Positions 3,275-13,617 of a DNA stretch of 64,000 nt are shown here, one piece after another. The notes below the pieces were generated by a model that made no database searches, was not told the DNA's origin, and saw only the letters and a list, made by a program, of their open reading frames with translations. Origin of the DNA: Flavobacteriales bacterium (GTDB taxonomy: Bacteria > Bacteroidota > Bacteroidia > Flavobacteriales_D > Cryomorphaceae); the NCBI GenBank assembly GCA_022448105.1, contig JAKVAV010000005.1, positions 173,387 to 237,386 on the forward strand, written 5' to 3'. The translations under genes were made by a program, and so were the position numbers. Every line of letters begins with the position of its first letter. Position 1 is the first letter of the stretch.

Positions 3275-6200
3275 TTAAAATAAGGTGCCCTGGATATTCT
3301 CTTCCTCGGTATTTAGTACTGGTGTCCATTCCATGCTTGGCACATAAACTACATAGCCTTCACCAGTCTTGTCTTCAACTTGTGTAATGGCCTTTAAATA
3401 CTTCTTCACTTGCTGAATATGACTCTTCTCCTTTCGTCCAGTTTTAAAATCAATTACTTTGAAGGTTGATTTTGTTTTGAAAACGACGTCTGGTCTCATG
3501 ACATCCCCATCGGATTGTAATGGTCGTTCGGAGAGCTTGGCAGCTGTTTCAAGTAGACTTAAGTACTTTTCATCGCTGTAGAGCGCTTCAAACCATTTTA
3601 ACACTTCAATATAGGATTCGTCAGATACTCCACCATTAATCCTACATCTATCAAGTTGAACCTTTGCCTCTTCAAGGCTAAACGTTTTTGAGGCAATATC
3701 GTGAAATAGAATACCTGTATCTCGGTTAGAAGAAACTCCTTCATGACTGATTTTGAACCTTTCTTGAATGGGGATGATTTGAGCAGATCCCACTTTTAAG
3801 TTGGATTCTTTAGTTTGCTTCTGGCTAGGTTTCTCCAGAGGTCTTGCTCTTCCGCCTAAGCATATGCTAGACTGAATTCCCTCTTCTGAGTGATGTAATT
3901 TCTGTAGAGTGGTATCAAGTATTTTTATTTCCTCATTTGCTATTCTGTCGTAAGCTTGGTTGACGACTTGTCCCGTCTCATCTTTGGAACCAATGCAATG
4001 AAAGAGGTAGAGACGCTCAGAAGGCCTGGTCAAGGCCACGTAGATCAGGTTTAAATTGTCAAAACTTATTTCCAAGAGATACTTTTCATACTCACTACTA
4101 TAACCTATATCGATCAGTGATTTTGTCATAGGCATTGGCATATATGAGAATGGGATATTCTCACCAGAGTTCAAAGGGATCCACTTGATCTCGGTTTTAT
4201 TAAGTTTCCAATTGAGGTTTGGAATGATGACTACCGGGAATTGAAGCCCTTTTGATTTGTGAATTGTCATGATCTTCACCTGATTCTCAGACACCCCGGA
4301 TTTTGCCTCTGGTTTTAAACTTAGACTGTCCCACCAATCAATGACCTCAGTTGCTGAAGAGGAATAACCTCTCTCTAGAATGCAATTGAGAAAGGACTGA
4401 ATGAACACATCATTCCTGATGGGGATTGGTACAAATCTATTGAGCACCTCATAGCAAATTTCTATCGCACTGAACCGTCGCAGTTGATCAAGTGAGAACT
4501 CTTTATCGATTGATTTGAGAAAGTGAGTAAAATTTAAATCCCCATTATTTTTCCCTTGTTTCCAAAATTCTTCTGGATGAAACGGAAGGTTTTGAAGACG
4601 ACAAATTTCTCGCATTACCCTTACCTGAGAAGGAGGTAAATTTGCATCTGCGGATAACCTGAGGAATTCGAGAAGCATCACTACAGTAGAATTCATGTCG
4701 AGCCCAAAGCTGTCTCTGGTCGTAAATGGTATTTCCGCTTTTGTTAGAGCCTCGATAATTGCGTTTACCTCCTTGCCTTTTTTCCTTACCAGTATGGCCA
4801 TGTCCCCAAAAGAGTATCCGTCGGCTATTGCTTCTTGAATGGAGTCAATTGTTTGATTAGAAATCAAAACGGGTCGGGCATTTTTTTCCAACTGGGTCCA
4901 TTTTACATAGCCTCCAACCTTGTGATCAGGAAATTTTTGTTTCGAGCTCGCTCCCTCATATTCTTTTCTAAAAATAGTGTTGGAGACAGTTAAAGAGTCC
5001 TTAAGAAGCTCAATGAGGCCATTGTTGAAGTTAACGATGGTGGGTAAACTTCTATAATTTGTATCCAAATGAACTATCCTTGAATTTTCTCGGAGTGAAA
5101 TCCTGTCCGTTGGCGAAATTGAAGAGTCAGTATGGTCTAATTCGGGTAAATGGATTAACTGCTCAGCTTTTCCTCCGCGCCATCTGTAAATGCTTTGTTT
5201 GGCGTCACCAACAACCATATTTAGCTGTCCCTCCGACAGAGAATCCGTTATAAATGGAGTGATGTTTTTCCATTGAAGCTCGCTGGTATCCTGAAATTCA
5301 TCAATGAGAATATGTTTAAAGCGATTCCCAAACTTTTCGTAAATATAAGCTACGGGTTCGCCATGCATTGATTTGGAAATAATGCGATTAAATTCAGAGA
5401 TCATGACCACATTTCGCTCTTTGGCTAGTTCCTTCAGGCTTTTGGAAAGGTCGGCCAACACCGCTAATAAATGAATTTGAGACAGTAGTTTCTTGGCGCT
5501 CATGTATTTTGAAAAGGGACCTTCAAAGAGCTCTTCTGATCTATGATAGAGATCCAGAAGTTCTCCATGTTTCAGGTCTAGACTGTCTTTAACCTCTCGC
5601 TTTGCGGAGCCCACATACCAGGATTCCTCTACAACAGGAAGCAATTTGCCGTGCAGGGGTTTATATTCTCCTTTGAATTCGCTCAATCGCTTAAAATAAC
5701 CGAAATACCCACTGCTTTTCTGCTTCAGATCATCGGCTGAAACATTTAATTCCAGAAAAATAGATAGAACACTCGAGCCGATTTTTTGAACACTCTTTTC
5801 AAAATTTGAAATAATAGGGAAAAGTGATTTTTTGGTTTTTTCGAATTCCTCCGGCTCTACCTCCATGATTGATTCGATTGGCTTAATCGCTGTTTCAGAG
5901 GTAAGGAGTGGCCTTAACTTAATGAGCTGTTGGGAGATGTTTGTCTTTTTATTCTCCTCAAGCGATTGCTCTAAATAACCTAACAAATGCTTCGTAATGT
6001 GAGCGTCTGATCCAACTTTTTCGAGTAGCATATCTACGGCTTCAGAGAAGAAATTCGCTTCTTCTAACTCCACTTCAAAATCAGATTTAATATTCAAGTC
6101 CCTGCTGAATGAACTGATGAGTTTATGATTAAAGCTATCAATGGTGCTAATACCTATTTCGTCATAATCTCGTAGAGCAATCTCTAGTACCTTTTTGGCT

Positions 6201-6502
6201 CTCAGCTTTAGCTCTAGAGCTGATATTTTCACCTGAGAAAGTAGTTGCTTGACCTCAAAATTTTGAAGGTGTGCTGGGATGCTTATATCGATATCTTTAA
6301 TCAAGCTGAGTATCGAGAGAAACCTTTGCTTCAGTTCGTTCGCAGCTTTATTGGTGAAGGTGATTGCTAGAATTTTTTTGAATTCGTGCGGATTCGAACT
6401 GGATAGACTAAGTTGTAGATAGTCTCCGATTAAGGCAGTCGTTTTACCTGACCCTGCCGATGATTTGTAAATGTGAAAACTCTTTTTTTCGCTCAAAGCC
6501 AA
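3275..6502 (-). CDS. UvrD/RecB-family helicase-nuclease (AddA-like)
   Basis: A 1075-residue superfamily 1A helicase. Motif I (Walker A) is GSGKTT at residues 17-22; motif II is DEFQDTS at 401-407; motif III-like GDAKQSIYRWRGG is at 432-444. The superfamily motif TIHKSKGLQFPVVI and the terminal helicase motif VALTRPSERLYL follow. The C-terminus carries a RecB-type PD-(D/E)XK nuclease: RPDVVF with Asp1005 and VIDFKTG with Asp1018/Lys1020. This is the layout of AddA, which unwinds and resects double-strand breaks for recombination together with an AddB partner. No AddB gene is adjacent here. The gene is divergent from the MbnP-like gene with 77 nt between starts. Confidence 0.9.
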   Translation of the reverse strand: MALSEKKSFHIYKSSAGSGKTTALIGDYLQLSLSSSNPHEFKKILAITFTNKAANELKQRFLSILSLIKDIDISIPAHLQNFEVKQLLSQVKISALELKLRAKKVLEIALRDYDEIGISTIDSFNHKLISSFSRDLNIKSDFEVELEEANFFSEAVDMLLEKVGSDAHITKHLLGYLEQSLEENKKTNISQQLIKLRPLLTSETAIKPIESIMEVEPEEFEKTKKSLFPIISNFEKSVQKIGSSVLSIFLELNVSADDLKQKSSGYFGYFKRLSEFKGEYKPLHGKLLPVVEESWYVGSAKREVKDSLDLKHGELLDLYHRSEELFEGPFSKYMSAKKLLSQIHLLAVLADLSKSLKELAKERNVVMISEFNRIISKSMHGEPVAYIYEKFGNRFKHILIDEFQDTSELQWKNITPFITDSLSEGQLNMVVGDAKQSIYRWRGGKAEQLIHLPELDHTDSSISPTDRISLRENSRIVHLDTNYRSLPTIVNFNNGLIELLKDSLTVSNTIFRKEYEGASSKQKFPDHKVGGYVKWTQLEKNARPVLISNQTIDSIQEAIADGYSFGDMAILVRKKGKEVNAIIEALTKAEIPFTTRDSFGLDMNSTVVMLLEFLRLSADANLPPSQVRVMREICRLQNLPFHPEEFWKQGKNNGDLNFTHFLKSIDKEFSLDQLRRFSAIEICYEVLNRFVPIPIRNDVFIQSFLNCILERGYSSSATEVIDWWDSLSLKPEAKSGVSENQVKIMTIHKSKGLQFPVVIIPNLNWKLNKTEIKWIPLNSGENIPFSYMPMPMTKSLIDIGYSSEYEKYLLEISFDNLNLIYVALTRPSERLYLFHCIGSKDETGQVVNQAYDRIANEEIKILDTTLQKLHHSEEGIQSSICLGGRARPLEKPSQKQTKESNLKVGSAQIIPIQERFKISHEGVSSNRDTGILFHDIASKTFSLEEAKVQLDRCRINGGVSDESYIEVLKWFEALYSDEKYLSLLETAAKLSERPLQSDGDVMRPDVVFKTKSTFKVIDFKTGRKEKSHIQQVKKYLKAITQVEDKTGEGYVVYVPSMEWTPVLNTEEENIQGTLF

Positions 6503-6538
6503 ATTTTACACCCCTCTTTAGAGCAGGGAAATTTAGGC

Positions 6539-6546
6539 TATTTTTG
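6539..6546 (+). promoter_or_regulatory. Bacteroidota-type -7 promoter element (TAnnTTTG) for the mbnP-like gene
   Basis: TATTTTTG matches the Bacteroidota sigma-A -7 consensus TAnnTTTG exactly and lies 33 nt before the ATG at 6580. I see no convincing -33 TTG at the usual spacing, so the assignment rests on the -7 box and its position in a divergent intergenic region. Confidence 0.5.
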
Positions 6547-6579
6547 TATAGCATCTGTGACCTTACCAATCCTTAGAAC

Positions 6580-7338
6580 ATGAAAAGTATTTTTTCATTC
6601 ATCGTCATCGTTCTTTTATTCGTTAGTTGTGGCGATGAAGAAGAGTCTACACCTGAATCTAAGGTATTTATGACTTTTAACCCGAGAGGAGGAGGGGAGG
6701 TCCTGCAGTTAGGTCAAACTCATACGAATGCAATGGATTATCCTTACTCTGTTTCGTTGATGAAGTTTTTTCTTTCGAAAATCGAACTTGTAAAAGATGA
6801 CGGTTCAGCTATTGAGCTTTCTGATATTGAAATAATTGATATGTCAGAGAACAAAAGGTCTCTCGAGTTCACTGTTCCAAATGGAAGCTACGTTGGCGTG
6901 AGGTATGATTTGGGAGTGCCTGCAGATATGAATGGGGTGGATGACCAAGATTTTTCCACTGCTCAATATCCTGCCGGTCACCCCCTAAATGAGCAAACGA
7001 CTCAAATGTACTGGCAACTTTCAGCGGGTTATAAATTCTTTTCCTTTGAAGGAAGATACGATACTCAGCCTAATACGGACGTCTTACCTAATTCGTTCAT
7101 CTTCCATACCGGGCATGATGTTCTCTATCGAGAAGTGGGTTTTTTCTCCAAAGACATGGACTTGAGTTCAGGAGGGAATGGACTCTTCGAATTTGCAGTA
7201 GACGTTGATAGTATTTTCGTGACCAGTGGTGATGTCATAGATTTGGCTGTTTTTGACAGCTTCCATGGTTCGTTGGATCTCATAGATCAAGGAGAGAAGA
7301 TTGCCAACAACATGGCGCGATCATTTGTGCTGAAATGA
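6580..7338 (+). CDS. MbnP-family copper-associated lipoprotein
   Basis: 252 residues. The signal peptide ends in a lipobox (LFVSC, Cys17), so the mature protein should be a periplasm-facing or surface lipoprotein. The core contains LMKFFLSKIELV, VRYDLGVPADMNG and the diagnostic MYWQLSAGYKFFSFEG segment, which match the MbnP domain. Family knowledge: MbnP proteins bind copper, and in characterised members a tryptophan is oxidised to kynurenine by the partner MbnH, creating or tuning the copper site. The next gene encodes just such a partner and overlaps by 4 nt (ATGA), implying translational coupling. The role in copper handling is inferred from this pairing; no methanobactin genes are visible. 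Confidence 0.85.
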   Translation: MKSIFSFIVIVLLFVSCGDEEESTPESKVFMTFNPRGGGEVLQLGQTHTNAMDYPYSVSLMKFFLSKIELVKDDGSAIELSDIEIIDMSENKRSLEFTVPNGSYVGVRYDLGVPADMNGVDDQDFSTAQYPAGHPLNEQTTQMYWQLSAGYKFFSFEGRYDTQPNTDVLPNSFIFHTGHDVLYREVGFFSKDMDLSSGGNGLFEFAVDVDSIFVTSGDVIDLAVFDSFHGSLDLIDQGEKIANNMARSFVLK

Positions 7339-8489
7339 TAAGAATCTGGGGGACATACCAAATGTCGACTCGGTTTGCCATTTTGGTTGTTGCTATGAGT
7401 CTTACCTGGGCGGCATGTTCAAAAGAAAACAACGATTCAAACCGCCTAGCACCCTCGAGTGGCAAAGTCCTATGTGATAGTGATCAGGAGACAGGGACGC
7501 CTTATCAACTAGAAAAACCATTTTACTTTCCAGAACCTGCAATACCAGCAGATAACCCACTTACTGAAGAAGGAATTCAATTAGGTAAGTATCTTTTTTG
7601 GGATAAACGACTTTCTCGGAATAACACAATTAGCTGTGGATCATGCCATTTTCCCTCTGCTACTTTCAGTGACGATAAGAGAAAAAGTCTGGGCCTATAC
7701 GGTGGTCAAACCCGTCGTAATAGCATGGCCTTAGTCAATCTGGCTTGGAATACTAGTTTTTTTTGGGATGGGAAGGCTCGCACTCTAGAAGAGCAATTGC
7801 TTGAGCCAATTGAAGATCCAATCGAAATGGATCATTCATGGAGAGAAGTCGTCGAAATTGTGGGAACAGATGTTCAGTACCAGAAAATGTTCAGTGATGC
7901 GTTTGGTAGTCCATGTGTTGACTCCGTCAGAATAACCTATGCCATGGCTCAATTTATTCGCACCATGATTTCGGCAAACAGTCCATTTGACAGATCTTTT
8001 TATGGATCAGAGATGCTGACTCAGAGTGAGCAAAGAGGGTTGGAACTTTTTCTCGCTGAAGGAGGTGATCCAAACGTATTTCCTGGGGGGCAAAGAGGTG
8101 GCGATTGTTTCCATTGTCACGGTGGAAGTCTTACTCTATTTACCGATCAAAGTTTTCACAATAATGGACTCGACAGTATTTTCACTGATCTCGGTAGAGC
8201 AGAAGTTAATGGAAGTCCTCTATCAGAGGGTCAATTTAAAACGCCTACACTCCGAAACATTGCGCTTTCGGCTCCTTATATGCACGATGGTCGTTTTGCC
8301 ACCCTGAGGGAAGTTATTGAGCACTACAACTCTGGAGGACACATATCACTCACTCTAGATCCACTAATGAAATTTCAAGGTGTAGGCTTAGGACTTTCTG
8401 ATCAAGATATTGACGATTTGATTGCTTTCTTGGAAAGCTTAACTGACGAAGAGTTTGTCAATAATCCTGATTTTCAGGATCCTCACTAG
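7335..8489 (+). CDS. di-heme cytochrome c peroxidase / MauG-family protein (MbnH-like)
   Basis: 384 residues from the ATG at 7335. A second in-frame ATG at 7362 gives a cleaner lipoprotein signal (MSTRFAILVVAMSLTWAAC) and may be the real start. Two c-type heme motifs are present, CGSCH at 101-105 and CFHCH at 258-262. The family segments NTSFFWDGKARTLEEQLLEP and PYMHDGRFATLREVI are also present. The layout is that of bacterial di-heme peroxidases and MauG. The ATGA overlap with the MbnP-like gene argues for the MbnH branch, whose role is oxidising a Trp of MbnP to kynurenine, rather than simple peroxide removal. Location is the periplasm, probably membrane-anchored by the lipidated Cys. Confidence 0.9.
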   Translation: MIRIWGTYQMSTRFAILVVAMSLTWAACSKENNDSNRLAPSSGKVLCDSDQETGTPYQLEKPFYFPEPAIPADNPLTEEGIQLGKYLFWDKRLSRNNTISCGSCHFPSATFSDDKRKSLGLYGGQTRRNSMALVNLAWNTSFFWDGKARTLEEQLLEPIEDPIEMDHSWREVVEIVGTDVQYQKMFSDAFGSPCVDSVRITYAMAQFIRTMISANSPFDRSFYGSEMLTQSEQRGLELFLAEGGDPNVFPGGQRGGDCFHCHGGSLTLFTDQSFHNNGLDSIFTDLGRAEVNGSPLSEGQFKTPTLRNIALSAPYMHDGRFATLREVIEHYNSGGHISLTLDPLMKFQGVGLGLSDQDIDDLIAFLESLTDEEFVNNPDFQDPH

Positions 8490-8574: not shown

Positions 8575-11500
8575 ATGAGGATAGCACGAATCATATTTTC
8601 AGCCATTCTCCCCTTGTTTTTGCTTTCAGCTACTGAAATTAAGGCTCAGTGCGAGCTGTTTGATTTCTTTGGTAATGCTTCGGCTACACCTTATTGGTAC
8701 AGTTGTAACGGAAACAATTTCAGTCTAAATTTGCAGTCTCCAAATAATATTGGTGCTTGGGAAATCGATTGGGGAGATGGTTCTGGTATTCAAAGCGGTG
8801 CTAGTCTTGTTCCTCCAGATTTTATTACGCACACGTACACATCCACGGTTGATACCTTCCTGCTGACGTTCACGGAAATCGGAACGGGATGCACGGTTAA
8901 TGGGGTAGTAGTGATGGAAGAAGCAAGTAATGCTTCCATCCAGGTACCTGTTGGCGGGCTGACTCAAGCTTGTGCGCCACAGACAATGGAATTCATTAAT
9001 TCCAGTACAAATACTTCAGAAACGACAGTATTCACCTGGGATTTTGGTGATGGATCTCCCATTGAAACTTACGATTACACCAACTTAGGTCAAGTGGTTT
9101 CCCATACCTACCTACCGGGTACGGTAGATTGTGAAACGGTAGTAACACTCACGGCCGAAAATTATTGCAACACCGTGCAGGGTGGTCCGAGTACCGCAAC
9201 TTTTAACCCGATTCGAATTTGGGACATTGATGACGCAGGAATTACTCCTTCTGCTAGTGTGCTCTGTTGGCCGGATAATGAGTTTACTTTCAATAACACG
9301 ACTGACCGAAACTGTTTATTTCAAGGTAACATCTTCCAGCGCTATGAGTACTGGAATTTTGGTGATTACTGGGGTTTAGGATATGACTCCATCGTTGATT
9401 GGACCCCTTGGCCACCGACATTTCCTCAAACAATAGAATATCCGGCAATAGGTACTTACGAAGTGACACTTCTTGACAGTAATCTTTGCGGGATTGACGC
9501 TGTGACTATTCAAGTCGAAATTGTAGCTCCGCCAACAGCCGCAGCTGCTGCGAGTGCAACCACTATTTGTCAAGGCGAAACGATCACCTTTAGCAATAAT
9601 TCTACGGGAGGAGCGACAAACTATCAATGGGACTTTGACGACGGTACACCTCCTGTAATTACTGGAGCGGCTACCATTGATCACGTCTTCAATACTGCTG
9701 GAACTTTTGATATTGAATTAATTGCTGCCGTGGGCGGCACGGGGAGCAATTGTGCAGATACGGTTTATGTTCCAATTATTGTATTGCCAGCTCCTGTTGC
9801 GGTTATTGATCTTGATAATATTGAAGCCTGCGATTTGTTGAGCATAAACTTTACCGATGCATCCACCGGAGCCATAAATGATTGGCAGTGGGATTTTGGA
9901 AACTCCAATACGCATAATGGTCAGTTTCCACCACAGCAGGATTATAATTTGCCAGGTGCTTATAATGTAGTTCTCACTGTATCCTCTGCAAATGGATGCT
10001 CTAATTCCGATACGGAGATTGTTACCGTCCATGAGTCGCCAGTTTCTGATTTTCTAGTTCAGAATGTCTGTGTCGGAACTGAAGGTAACTTTCTAGATTT
10101 ATCTACTACTCAAACTAGTGATCCGATTATTTCATGGTCTTGGGATTTTGGAGATGCGAGCGGTGCTGTTGATCAAAATCCCACTCACGAGTATCCTGGA
10201 GCAGGTACTTACACAGTTGAGCTTGAAGTAGCTACTGTTTTTTGCACGTCAACTTCCACGCAGAATGTAGTTGTGGAGCCTGCACCAAGTGCGTCTTTTA
10301 CCCATGCTGTAGTTTCCGGTTGTTCACCATTAGAAGTAGCCTTTACAAATACCACATCTGGGGCGGATTCCTACTCATGGATCTTTGGTGGTGGAGGTGG
10401 AAGTGGAGATGAAAGTCCGGCGAATGTCTTCAATAATTTTGGAGATGCTGATTCGGTTTATCAGGTTACTATGGTCGCACAGAATGCTTTTGGATGTCGT
10501 GATACAGCTATAAGCTCTATCACGGTGCATCCGAATGCGATTGCACAGTTTCAATCCTTTTATACACCGGGGTGTGATCCAGATTCTGCGATATTTTTGA
10601 ATACATCTATCAATGCTGATAATTTTGAATGGAACTTTGGAGATGGGACAATATCTACCGATGAGAATCCAACCCACGATTTTCAGAATACGGGTCAAAT
10701 AATAGAGCAATTTGACATAGAGCTCGTAGCCTTCACTGCAAACGGATGCAACGATACGACTTCGAGTACCATTTCTGTTTTTCCTCAACCAGACTTTAAT
10801 TTTGTGCTACCTGTAGACACTGGTTGTAGTCCTTTTACAGTGCAGTTTCCTGCTGTGGCTGGCGCCATAAATAATCAATGGACTTTTGGAGATGGAACCA
10901 TCAGTACCGCACCTAATCCGTCACATTCTTACGGGAATAATACTCTCGCTCCAATCACGTATGAAGTAGAACTTGTAGCTACTTCGCCATTTGGTTGTAA
11001 CGATACTTCTTATGCTGAGGTAATCGTAAATCCAAATCCTGTTTCACAGTTTTCAGTAGATCAAACGTCGGGTTGTAGCCCCCTTACTGTAAGGTTTACC
11101 AATGAAAGTATACTGGCAGACTCTGTAGTTTGGAGTTATGGAGATGGTACAACATCTGATACGTCTTCCTTCATCCACAGCCATACTTTTAACAACACAA
11201 CAAATCAGACCATTTCATACACCGTAGAACTGATGGCATACACGGCCGAAGGCTGTAGCGAGACCTTTACACGAAATATTGAAGTACATCCATTAGTGGA
11301 GGCCGCTTTTTCCCATCCCGTAGAAGAGTGTTCACCGCAATCGTTCGTATTTGAAAACGAAAGTGTAAACGCCTCTTTCTATCAGTGGGATTTAGGAAAC
11401 GGAGTGGTAAGTGTGGCAGAAAATCCGCTTGGTGGTTATCAATTGAATGGCTTTGAGCCAGATACATTTGGTATCCAGCTTGTGGCTACCTCAATGTTTG

Positions 11501-13617
11501 GATGTGAAGACACTGCGAGGAGCGAACTTATCCTTCATCCCAAGCCTACGGCCTCAATTATTCCGAGTGGAGTAGCAGGGTGCTCGCCTTACACAGTAAA
11601 CTTTCAGAACAATAGTTCGATTGCCACATCATATCAATGGAACTACGGCGATGGCGATACTTCTGATACACTTAACTTAGTTCACGAACACGAATTTGTA
11701 TCCACATCTACAGCTCCCCAGGACTTTGAAGTTTCACTTATTGCCTCTACTGATTTTGGTTGCGCCGATACAAGTTTAATAGGGATTACGGTTTACCCTG
11801 AAGTGATTGCGCAATTTGCTCCAGAAACCGAAGGTTGTTCTCCTCTATCGGTAGATTTTGTGAATACATCTTTTGGAGGAGCCACATACAATTGGTCTTT
11901 TGGTGATGGAAATGAGGCGTTTATCCCAAATCCGTCCAATACTTTTGTGAACGTTCTCGACACCGTGAGAGATTTTACTGTCACTATGGTGGCTCAGTCC
12001 GGTTTTGGTTGCACCGATACAACTATCGGCAACATTAAAGTTTTCCCGCTTCCCGAAGTCAGTATAGCTCTGAACAATGTAGAAGGATGTTTCCCAGCAG
12101 ATTTTGAGTTTGCTAATTACACTGAAGGTGCTGAAACCTACTTCTGGCAATACGGTGATGGAAATGAGTCTGATAGTTCGGATTCTCTTCATACGCATAC
12201 GTATGTAAACTCTACCACAGAATTGGAGACAAAGACCGTTACTCTTATCGCAACTACAGAGTACGGATGCCAAGATCAAGAATCGATTGAAGTAGAGGTC
12301 ATTCCTGAAATTGAGGCTGATGTCGTCTTCCCAGAAGGTGGATGTTCACCTTATACAGCAGAGTTTGAGAACAATACGATTGGTGCTTTCAGTTACTTAT
12401 GGCAGTTTGGAGATGGAAACTTTTCCCAAGAGGAAGAGCCAACTTATACTTACGAGAACTTCAATTCAGAAGACTCAACATATACAGTACTTTTTATAGC
12501 GCAATCTTTATACGGATGTGCCGATACACTTGAATATATACTTCCTGTTTTAGGATTGCCCGAAGCGCAATTTATCGCTACTCCTGCAGTTCAGCAATTT
12601 CCGAATGCAACTATCGATTTGGTGAATTTGAGTTTTGCGAATGATGGTGCGAATTATGTCTGGGCTTGGGGTAATGGGGTTATCGATTCTGCCACTGATC
12701 CTAATGAAATAATGGGGTATACGTATGGAACTTGGGGAGAGTATACGATAGTATTGAGTGTTGGAAATGATGTATGTAATGATACTGCTTTTCAGCAGAT
12801 AACAATAGAACCACCGCTTCCAATCGCATCTTTTGAGGGAGAAGGTACTGGCTGTGAACCGCTGGTTGTGGAGTTTACCAATACTTCGACATATGGTGTG
12901 GAATTTCTGTGGGATTTCGGTGATGGCGTGATTAGTGACGAGCAGAATCCGACTCATTTTTACACAGATCCTGGCACATATAATGTCTCTTTGACTGTCA
13001 CTGGTCCGGGTGGAGACATAGATACGGAGATAAAACCTAGCCTAATTACAGTACACCCGAGGGCGGAGGCTTTTTTCACCGTAAATCCCCCGGTGATTAC
13101 TGTTCCAGATCAAGTTTTCTTTTTGAACTTGTCCATAGATGCGGATTCGTACTTCTGGGATTTTGGAGATGGAAATACATCTATAGAGTTCTCACCTTAT
13201 AATTTCTATGAGACGACCGGTTGGCATCCGGTTACTCTAGTAGCAGATACTGAATTTGGATGCAAAGATACTTTCAGTCTTGACCAAGCGGTGAGAGGTG
13301 ATGTTGAAACTAGGATAGCATTTCCAAATGCGTTTACTCCTAATAATGCAGGTCCTAATGGTGGATTATGGACTGTTGACGACCTATTTAATAACGATAT
13401 CTTCTTTCCTCAATACAAAGGAGTAGAAGACTTTGAGATGCAAATTTTTAATAAATGGGGCGAATTACTTTTTGAGTCAAAAGAGGTTAGACGCGGTTGG
13501 GATGGATACTATAAAGGGGAGATGTGCCAGCAGGATGTATACGTCTGGAGAGTAAAGGTGACTTTTGCAGATGGGGGAGAATTAATTGATTCAGGCGATG
13601 TAACACTATTGAGATGA
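8575..13617 (+). CDS. giant PKD-repeat adhesin-like protein with T9SS type B C-terminal domain
   Basis: 1680 residues. A signal peptide (about residues 1-24, ending EIKAQ) is followed by roughly 18 tandem PKD-like units, each centred on variants of W-x-FGDG (for example YQWDFDDGTPP, FEWNFGDGTIS, YNWSFGDGNEA, FLWDFGDGVIS). Most units also repeat a GCSPL/GCDP strand and an x-FGC-x-DT strand. The last ~95 residues (FPNAFTPNN, IFNKWGELLF, GWDGYYKG, DVYVWRV) form the CHU_C type B sorting domain. It is inferred to be a long flexible surface adhesin exported by T9SS. The two downstream genes are coupled: the next starts inside its stop (ATGA) and the third is PorP/SprF. This matches the known dependence of type B substrates such as SprB on a SprF partner. 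Confidence 0.93.
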   Translation: MRIARIIFSAILPLFLLSATEIKAQCELFDFFGNASATPYWYSCNGNNFSLNLQSPNNIGAWEIDWGDGSGIQSGASLVPPDFITHTYTSTVDTFLLTFTEIGTGCTVNGVVVMEEASNASIQVPVGGLTQACAPQTMEFINSSTNTSETTVFTWDFGDGSPIETYDYTNLGQVVSHTYLPGTVDCETVVTLTAENYCNTVQGGPSTATFNPIRIWDIDDAGITPSASVLCWPDNEFTFNNTTDRNCLFQGNIFQRYEYWNFGDYWGLGYDSIVDWTPWPPTFPQTIEYPAIGTYEVTLLDSNLCGIDAVTIQVEIVAPPTAAAAASATTICQGETITFSNNSTGGATNYQWDFDDGTPPVITGAATIDHVFNTAGTFDIELIAAVGGTGSNCADTVYVPIIVLPAPVAVIDLDNIEACDLLSINFTDASTGAINDWQWDFGNSNTHNGQFPPQQDYNLPGAYNVVLTVSSANGCSNSDTEIVTVHESPVSDFLVQNVCVGTEGNFLDLSTTQTSDPIISWSWDFGDASGAVDQNPTHEYPGAGTYTVELEVATVFCTSTSTQNVVVEPAPSASFTHAVVSGCSPLEVAFTNTTSGADSYSWIFGGGGGSGDESPANVFNNFGDADSVYQVTMVAQNAFGCRDTAISSITVHPNAIAQFQSFYTPGCDPDSAIFLNTSINADNFEWNFGDGTISTDENPTHDFQNTGQIIEQFDIELVAFTANGCNDTTSSTISVFPQPDFNFVLPVDTGCSPFTVQFPAVAGAINNQWTFGDGTISTAPNPSHSYGNNTLAPITYEVELVATSPFGCNDTSYAEVIVNPNPVSQFSVDQTSGCSPLTVRFTNESILADSVVWSYGDGTTSDTSSFIHSHTFNNTTNQTISYTVELMAYTAEGCSETFTRNIEVHPLVEAAFSHPVEECSPQSFVFENESVNASFYQWDLGNGVVSVAENPLGGYQLNGFEPDTFGIQLVATSMFGCEDTARSELILHPKPTASIIPSGVAGCSPYTVNFQNNSSIATSYQWNYGDGDTSDTLNLVHEHEFVSTSTAPQDFEVSLIASTDFGCADTSLIGITVYPEVIAQFAPETEGCSPLSVDFVNTSFGGATYNWSFGDGNEAFIPNPSNTFVNVLDTVRDFTVTMVAQSGFGCTDTTIGNIKVFPLPEVSIALNNVEGCFPADFEFANYTEGAETYFWQYGDGNESDSSDSLHTHTYVNSTTELETKTVTLIATTEYGCQDQESIEVEVIPEIEADVVFPEGGCSPYTAEFENNTIGAFSYLWQFGDGNFSQEEEPTYTYENFNSEDSTYTVLFIAQSLYGCADTLEYILPVLGLPEAQFIATPAVQQFPNATIDLVNLSFANDGANYVWAWGNGVIDSATDPNEIMGYTYGTWGEYTIVLSVGNDVCNDTAFQQITIEPPLPIASFEGEGTGCEPLVVEFTNTSTYGVEFLWDFGDGVISDEQNPTHFYTDPGTYNVSLTVTGPGGDIDTEIKPSLITVHPRAEAFFTVNPPVITVPDQVFFLNLSIDADSYFWDFGDGNTSIEFSPYNFYETTGWHPVTLVADTEFGCKDTFSLDQAVRGDVETRIAFPNAFTPNNAGPNGGLWTVDDLFNNDIFFPQYKGVEDFEMQIFNKWGELLFESKEVRRGWDGYYKGEMCQQDVYVWRVKVTFADGGELIDSGDVTLLR

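Follow-up and report, generated by a model that had tools for sequence, protein, structure and literature searches.

A single-tryptophan MbnP beside an MbnH-type di-haem gene in a Flavobacteriales bacterium: a possible copper unit independent of methanobactin

Results

The gene pair and the predicted MbnP fold

The window analysed here is a 64,000-nt stretch of contig JAKVAV010000005.1 of a Flavobacteriales bacterium. On its forward strand lie two genes that overlap by ATGA: an MbnP-family lipoprotein of 252 aa (6580-7338; lipobox FVSC, Cys17) and an MbnH-type di-haem lipoprotein of the MauG superfamily with 384 aa (7335-8489). An earlier, sequence-only reading had described an MbnP-domain lipoprotein and a di-haem MauG-like protein at these positions, and this description holds. 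The MbnP open reading frame scores 93.4 bits with Pfam PF20243 (gathering cut-off 27). The overlap is real and is kept in the congener (genome G412), which also backs the ATGA start: ahead of the signal peptide its MbnH offers no alternative Met. The lipobox Cys of both proteins has acidic or polar residues behind it, in the window and in five relatives from the family. Such a run is reminiscent of the signal for surface export in Bacteroidota lipoproteins; surface exposure of MbnP and MbnH is possible.

The stricter NCBIfam equivalog TIGR04052 ('MbnP_like_WxW') is not reached (52.5 bits, cut-off 140), and the WxW motif of this model reads WQL at residues 145-147 of the window MbnP. The same model is also missed by two proteins that do carry WxW, namely the MbnP of the congener (55.8 bits) and a paralogue from the same genome (38.8 bits). 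Since the WxW congener misses the strict models for both proteins of the pair, the shortfall partly reflects the clade.

An AlphaFold2 model of the window MbnP, calculated with 73 relatives, has a pLDDT of 92.9. The predicted fold is closest to 7l6g, the crystallised MbnP of Methylosinus trichosporium (VIA-align 2: Z 17.6 over 199 residues, 2.7 A, 19% identity), while the runner-up reaches a Z of only 7.3. Foldseek returned six matches at E <=0.001, all of them chains of 7l6g. A profile of 24 MbnPs found 7l6g among the PDB sequences at 1.7e-5, with M-x-W-x-W and the later H-G aligned.

The MbnH-type partner

The di-haem protein matches Pfam PF03150 with 178 bits. Of the NCBIfam models that matched, TIGR04039 ('MbnH family') scores highest with 277.3 bits, below its cut-off of 362.85; the MauG model TIGR03791 gives only 192 bits, its cut-off being 443.85. 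The best PDB match is 6e1c ('Di-heme enzyme', E 2.8e-58), which we take to be the MbnH of M. trichosporium. We compared the protein with 265 MbnH-type proteins from loci L068-L287, a set in which some genomes are included twice. Both CxxCH haem sites are on the forward strand: CGSCH at 7635-7649, where Cys and His are found in 263 of the 265 proteins (2 gaps), and CFHCH at 8106-8120 (262 of 265, 3 gaps). The axial-ligand position, Met in classical bacterial cytochrome c peroxidases, is taken by Tyr331 (codon 8325-8327, forward strand); at this position 232 of the 265 proteins have Tyr and 25 have Phe. Tyr is also the axial ligand of MauG.

Since PF03150 spans both classes, one could suppose that the gene encodes an ordinary cytochrome c peroxidase which happens to adjoin an unrelated protein. 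We consider this hardly credible, and rejected it on the axial Tyr and on a tree. Two of the PDB peroxidases have a printed segment that extends to the axial position, and both carry Met there; moreover, TIGR04039 outscores the other NCBIfam models. In a quick IQ-TREE run on 71 rows, of which a non-redundant set of 112 MbnH-type proteins supplied the first 62, the same genome four and the PDB five segments (MauG being absent), a branch with support 100 splits four PDB peroxidases from all other rows, including the window MbnH. The clustering with ordinary peroxidases that would have spoken against the sequence-only reading is thus not seen. The window MbnH and that of the congener group together at 100; for the relation of the window MbnH to 6e1c the tree gives no resolution.

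A peroxidase beside an unrelated protein is also at odds with the conserved pairing. An iterated profile run on 207 loci gave 183 MbnPs that are distinct over residues 100-176. Of the 179 assessable rows, 169 have an MbnH-type gene downstream in the same orientation, where its start had to fall at -400 to +1100 bases and a tandem second MbnP could intervene; contig ends truncate four more rows. The pair therefore behaves as a unit. Eight of the ten rows without a downstream MbnH belong to a class of twelve rows with Thr at position 143. All ten genomes have TIGR04039 matches elsewhere, none of them over the strict cut-off, and at E 0.001 this model also matches in the E. coli and Methanosarcina controls.

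The eight MbnPs of the Thr143 class without an adjacent MbnH are found in L064, L093, L094, L095, L100, L112, L117 and L119. Seven of them (the neighbour survey covered these seven, with L064 left out) adjoin a DUF4625 protein; nearby there is a barrel-like gene in 7/7 and a small Cys protein in 5/7 (both families are described below).

Other loci have MbnH-type genes in tandem behind MbnP, for example L077, L101, L110, L118 and L220. In 15 loci the axial position is Phe in the first copy and Tyr in the second, while both copies have Tyr in 40 loci (some genomes counted twice). The Phe-type copies may have an unusual haem chemistry. The genome under study has in addition a stand-alone di-haem gene of MauG/MbnH type with an axial Tyr (L006, contig C56, 30859-31755); no MbnP was found in the 3.9 kb locus around it.

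The presumed copper site and the missing second Trp

In the MbnP of M. trichosporium the copper site reportedly comprises His, Met, a solvent and kynurenine, the last of these derived from the first Trp of the WxW motif. Kynurenine-assisted copper binding by this protein, with the first WxW Trp oxidised via MbnH, was reportedly described by Manesis in PNAS in 2021. We looked for the corresponding residues in the window MbnP. Met143 (codon 7006-7008) is a presumed Cu(I) ligand, is Met in 148/183 rows and aligns with the Met of 'MAWNW' in 7l6g. Trp145 (7012-7014) is the presumed kynurenine site, is Trp in 175/183 rows and corresponds to the first Trp of the same motif. His176 (7105-7107), the other presumed Cu(I) ligand, is His in 180/183 rows and aligns with the His of 'MVHVG'. 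All these codons are on the forward strand, as is the CTT codon of Leu147 (7018-7020) at the position of the second Trp of WxW, which is Trp in 166/183 MbnPs and TGG in the congener.

The candidate Trp named in the sequence-only reading is thus the right one; Trp145 is in fact the only Trp of the protein. The proposed alignment to characterised MbnPs is borne out for Trp, Met and His, which are conserved relative to 7l6g and in most of the 183 rows, so that the case of a protein without conserved Trp or ligands does not arise, while the absence of the second WxW Trp had been overlooked. Met143, Trp145 and His176 are conserved candidates for the site known from M. trichosporium, and their roles as ligands are what we infer from the alignment. 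Gly112 is present in 182/182 rows that have a residue there. The window MbnP matches seven of the eight columns that are conserved in at least 85% of the rows.

Column counts over the 183 rows were automatic, and the 17 rows without Trp at both columns were read by eye. One of them is the window MbnP. Two (L171 and L200) were counted as lacking Trp145 but do have a Trp, within a WPxM motif that is shifted; three (L082, L083 and L086) have Val at the Trp145 position; two are tandem first copies without the motif and one is a fragment. The remaining eight retain Trp145 and deviate at or around position 147. A contig search with the window MbnP alone gave no match, and one with the alignment gave 80 loci, which we excluded from the motif counts because all of them had been picked by a [YF]WxW pattern.

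The three Val proteins come from genomes of the same class (G088, G381 and G103), and an MbnH-type gene nevertheless follows each of them; in L086 there is a Trp two residues before the Val position. The two motif-less copies (L079:3666-4421 and L081:2111-2884) are the first MbnPs of MbnP-MbnP-MbnH arrays and lack both the Trp and the His of the site.

Three of the 183 rows have one Trp in the domain and one row, the fragment, has none. Besides the window MbnP the single-Trp rows are L095, which has Thr143 and no adjacent MbnH, and L081:2111-2884, the motif-less first copy. The long MbnP ORFs of L068-L287 number 232, and those with a single Trp are the two just named and L272:4009-4794, which reads K-I-G where the window MbnP has H176-x-G. 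The other single-Trp MbnPs found here lack a part of the site, and an MbnH does not always follow them.

The combination of Leu147 with intact Met143, Trp145 and His176 is found in the window row only, among 183. This may point to an impaired or redesigned site: lacking the second Trp as a target neighbour, MbnH would be unable to take Trp145 all the way to kynurenine or would oxidise another residue, such as Tyr144 or Tyr151, and MbnP would bind copper weakly, bind another metal or be drifting. The only other row with these three residues and a non-Trp at position 147 (L185) does have an MbnH, but its WPM motif is built differently, and both WxM rows of the Thr143 class are without an adjacent MbnH. 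Nevertheless, we regard an impaired site as unlikely, given that the other conserved columns are retained, that both haem sites and Tyr331 are in place in an intact pair, and that the overlap and the promoter block (see below) are retained in the congener.

Three further possibilities were considered. A sequencing error at Leu147 is unlikely, as judged from the assembly sequence only: CTT and the TGG of the congener, whose MbnP is 59.9% identical to that of the window and carries WQW, differ at all three bases, and the frame is intact. The His of the GHPL motif is not conserved in the MbnP alignment and was dropped as a copper ligand. No link was found between Leu147 and a co-varying MbnH residue; Ser297 (instead of Asp) is the only MbnH column conserved to at least 90% in which the window MbnH deviates, and it is shared with the WxW congener.

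Divergence of the pair

We compared the identity of the window proteins to four family outgroups with that of the congener's proteins. The window MbnP falls below the congener's by 1.5, 1.7, 10.6 and 6.0 points and the window MbnH by 4.1, 3.1, 3.8 and 3.1 points. The same comparison gives 0.7, 0.1, 1.9 and 1.1 points for the neighbouring helicase and 0, 1.9, 0.2 and 1.4 points for the PKD gene. This is mild evidence that the pair diverges somewhat more than its neighbours in the window lineage, which could mean a relaxed or a changed constraint; it is a point in favour of an impaired or redesigned site. The helicase control slightly lowered our confidence in the explanation that we prefer (see Discussion).

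Promoter and genomic setting

The sequence-only reading had placed a -7 box in front of MbnP. We find the -7-like box TATTTTTG at 6539-6546, within an 18-base block TAGGCTATTTTTGTATAG (6534-6551, forward strand) that is identical in the congener. Taken alone the motif occurs at chance frequency, since the window holds 49 instances against 55 expected. In the roughly 220 bases examined, TAnnTTTG has a match in two of four other family members and none in the other two. On the two sequences that share the block, the -7 box is credible.

Upstream of the pair there is a divergent UvrD/AddA-like helicase gene (3275-6502, reverse strand; Pfam UvrD), and downstream a PKD-repeat protein with a T9SS tail (8575-13617, forward strand; Pfam). 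Both mark a conserved site. The order helicase (divergent), MbnP-MbnH, PKD recurs in the five family loci that are long enough (L069-L073), one of which, L071, has an additional ORF before the PKD gene. The helicase gene adjoins MbnP in many further loci of the order and was found in 25/133 and 34/74 MbnP-bearing loci of two sets, which may share genomes. The recurring gene order suggests that the pair was inherited vertically in this Flavobacteriales lineage. The window MbnP has a match at E <=0.001 in 374/399 genomes of its order, where MbnP was counted alone and pairing left aside, and MbnP matches were found in 101/392 genomes of the phylum. Named relatives were deposited as Flavobacteriales, Cryomorphaceae and Crocinitomicaceae, among others.

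No copper gene adjoins the pair or lies within the helicase-MbnP-MbnH-PKD arrangement. Genes of the copper chaperone SCO1 occur in 6/207 MbnP-bearing loci (4/133 and 2/74), none of them at this type of site. From the lack of a copper gene in this arrangement it could be argued that the pair has a role without copper, such as peroxide handling by MbnH with MbnP as a redox or structural partner, all the more as the same genome has a second locus that could do the copper work. We think this quite improbable: Met143 and His176 are retained, and a Met and a His beside an oxidisable Trp are hard to explain without a soft metal.

The second locus (L068, contig C5) resembles the pair in that MbnP is followed by MbnH-type genes. 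It differs in that its MbnP has an intact WxW and a T9SS C-terminal tail and in that the MbnH-type genes are two.

Across Bacteroidota two unnamed families flank MbnP-MbnH: a small Cys protein (C.NK.KP.L.C.GKC.L.K, with a C-terminal PP) and a barrel-like protein with CDxC. Both are present in 32/133 and 12/74 loci; examples are L168:3925-4293, L112:4234-4614 and L170:4790-5740. For one example of each family there was no Pfam or NCBIfam match over cut-off, and a profile of the small Cys protein, run without a positive control, had no match in the genome under study. The two are candidate parts of a copper uptake cassette.

Methanobactin and related systems

The sequence-only reading had taken the pair to be independent of methanobactin genes. 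This stands, as the 92.7%-complete assembly has no match to TIGR04159 or PF05114; the search covered MbnB-type models only. Such a pair in Bacteroidota is not new. MbnP is routine in the order (see above), and pairs far beyond the methanobactin producers are reported in a 2013 paper (PMC3621798). MbnPH-like genes in copper operons are noted in a 2022 paper (PMC9426467). Among the open-literature matches listed there was no paper on MbnP/MbnH in Bacteroidota; an earlier description may exist. A Bacteroidota pair without methanobactin is therefore of an already known kind, and the new element is the single-Trp variant.

Among the closest characterised systems is the MbnP/MbnH of M. trichosporium OB3b (7l6g, 6e1c). 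The pairs share the predicted MbnP fold, the MxW and HG columns and the gene pairing, and of the PDB entries 6e1c matches the window MbnH best. Unlike its counterpart, the window pair is not accompanied by methanobactin genes, and its MbnP is a lipoprotein with WxL in place of WxW and an identity of 19% over the structural alignment. MauG of methylamine utilisation is likewise a di-haem enzyme of the superfamily that acts on the Trp of a partner protein; however, it makes tryptophan tryptophylquinone from two Trp, and the window MbnH stays below the cut-off of its model.

For CorA and MopE it is established that kynurenine assists in copper binding (PMC3912023). CorA/CorB of Methylomicrobium album and MopE/SACCP of Methylococcus capsulatus resemble the window pair in having a single copper site of this kind and a co-transcribed di-haem partner (same paper), but have two His ligands where the window MbnP presumably has Met and His. 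The sequence-only reading had envisaged a comparison with CorA-type proteins; searched against the PDB, the profile of 24 MbnPs retrieved neither CorA nor MopE with an E of 1 or less. Neither protein is among the fold matches listed for the window MbnP, which tells nothing either way. So far the link is one of mechanism only.

Discussion

Fold, site, pairing and partner class make it most likely that the pair acts like its M. trichosporium counterpart. The explanation to which we lean, with modest confidence, is that MbnH converts Trp145 to kynurenine and that MbnP holds Cu(I), the two proteins forming a methanobactin-independent copper unit. In detail, a two-gene unit, probably inherited vertically in this order of Bacteroidota, would encode a di-haem lipoprotein of MauG/MbnH type that oxidises the single Trp of MbnP. 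The mature, membrane-anchored MbnP would then coordinate a single Cu(I) by Met143 and His176, with the kynurenine alongside, and would scavenge or store copper in the periplasm or at the surface. The absence of the second Trp would be tolerated. For this explanation speak the fold match to 7l6g, the seven of eight columns, the pairing, the axial Tyr331, the placement in the tree, the SCO1 genes in a few MbnP-bearing loci elsewhere and the kynurenine-assisted copper binding of CorA and MopE; against it speak the loss of the Trp at position 147, the strict NCBIfam models that are not reached, the mildly faster divergence and the lack of an adjoining copper gene. Copper handling by the pair is an inference, since the genes directly on either side encode a helicase and a PKD-repeat protein.

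It is a tentative proposal, less secure than the copper unit as such, that the window MbnP works with one Trp: either MbnH forms the kynurenine without a second Trp, which would then be no obligatory relay or cross-link partner, or another residue is oxidised and a new metal site results. On the role of the second WxW Trp we found no statement in the literature searched, which left out the key M. trichosporium MbnP paper.

With a single Trp and an intact MbnH next to it, the window MbnP offers a substrate free of ambiguity, as any Trp oxidation must fall on Trp145, and a fluorescence change or mass shift of the window MbnP would report one residue. The window pair is a clean natural test of how the Trp modification works. 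With MbnP in nearly all sampled genomes of the order and in several gene settings, this chemistry may be far commoner outside the methanotrophs than its name suggests.
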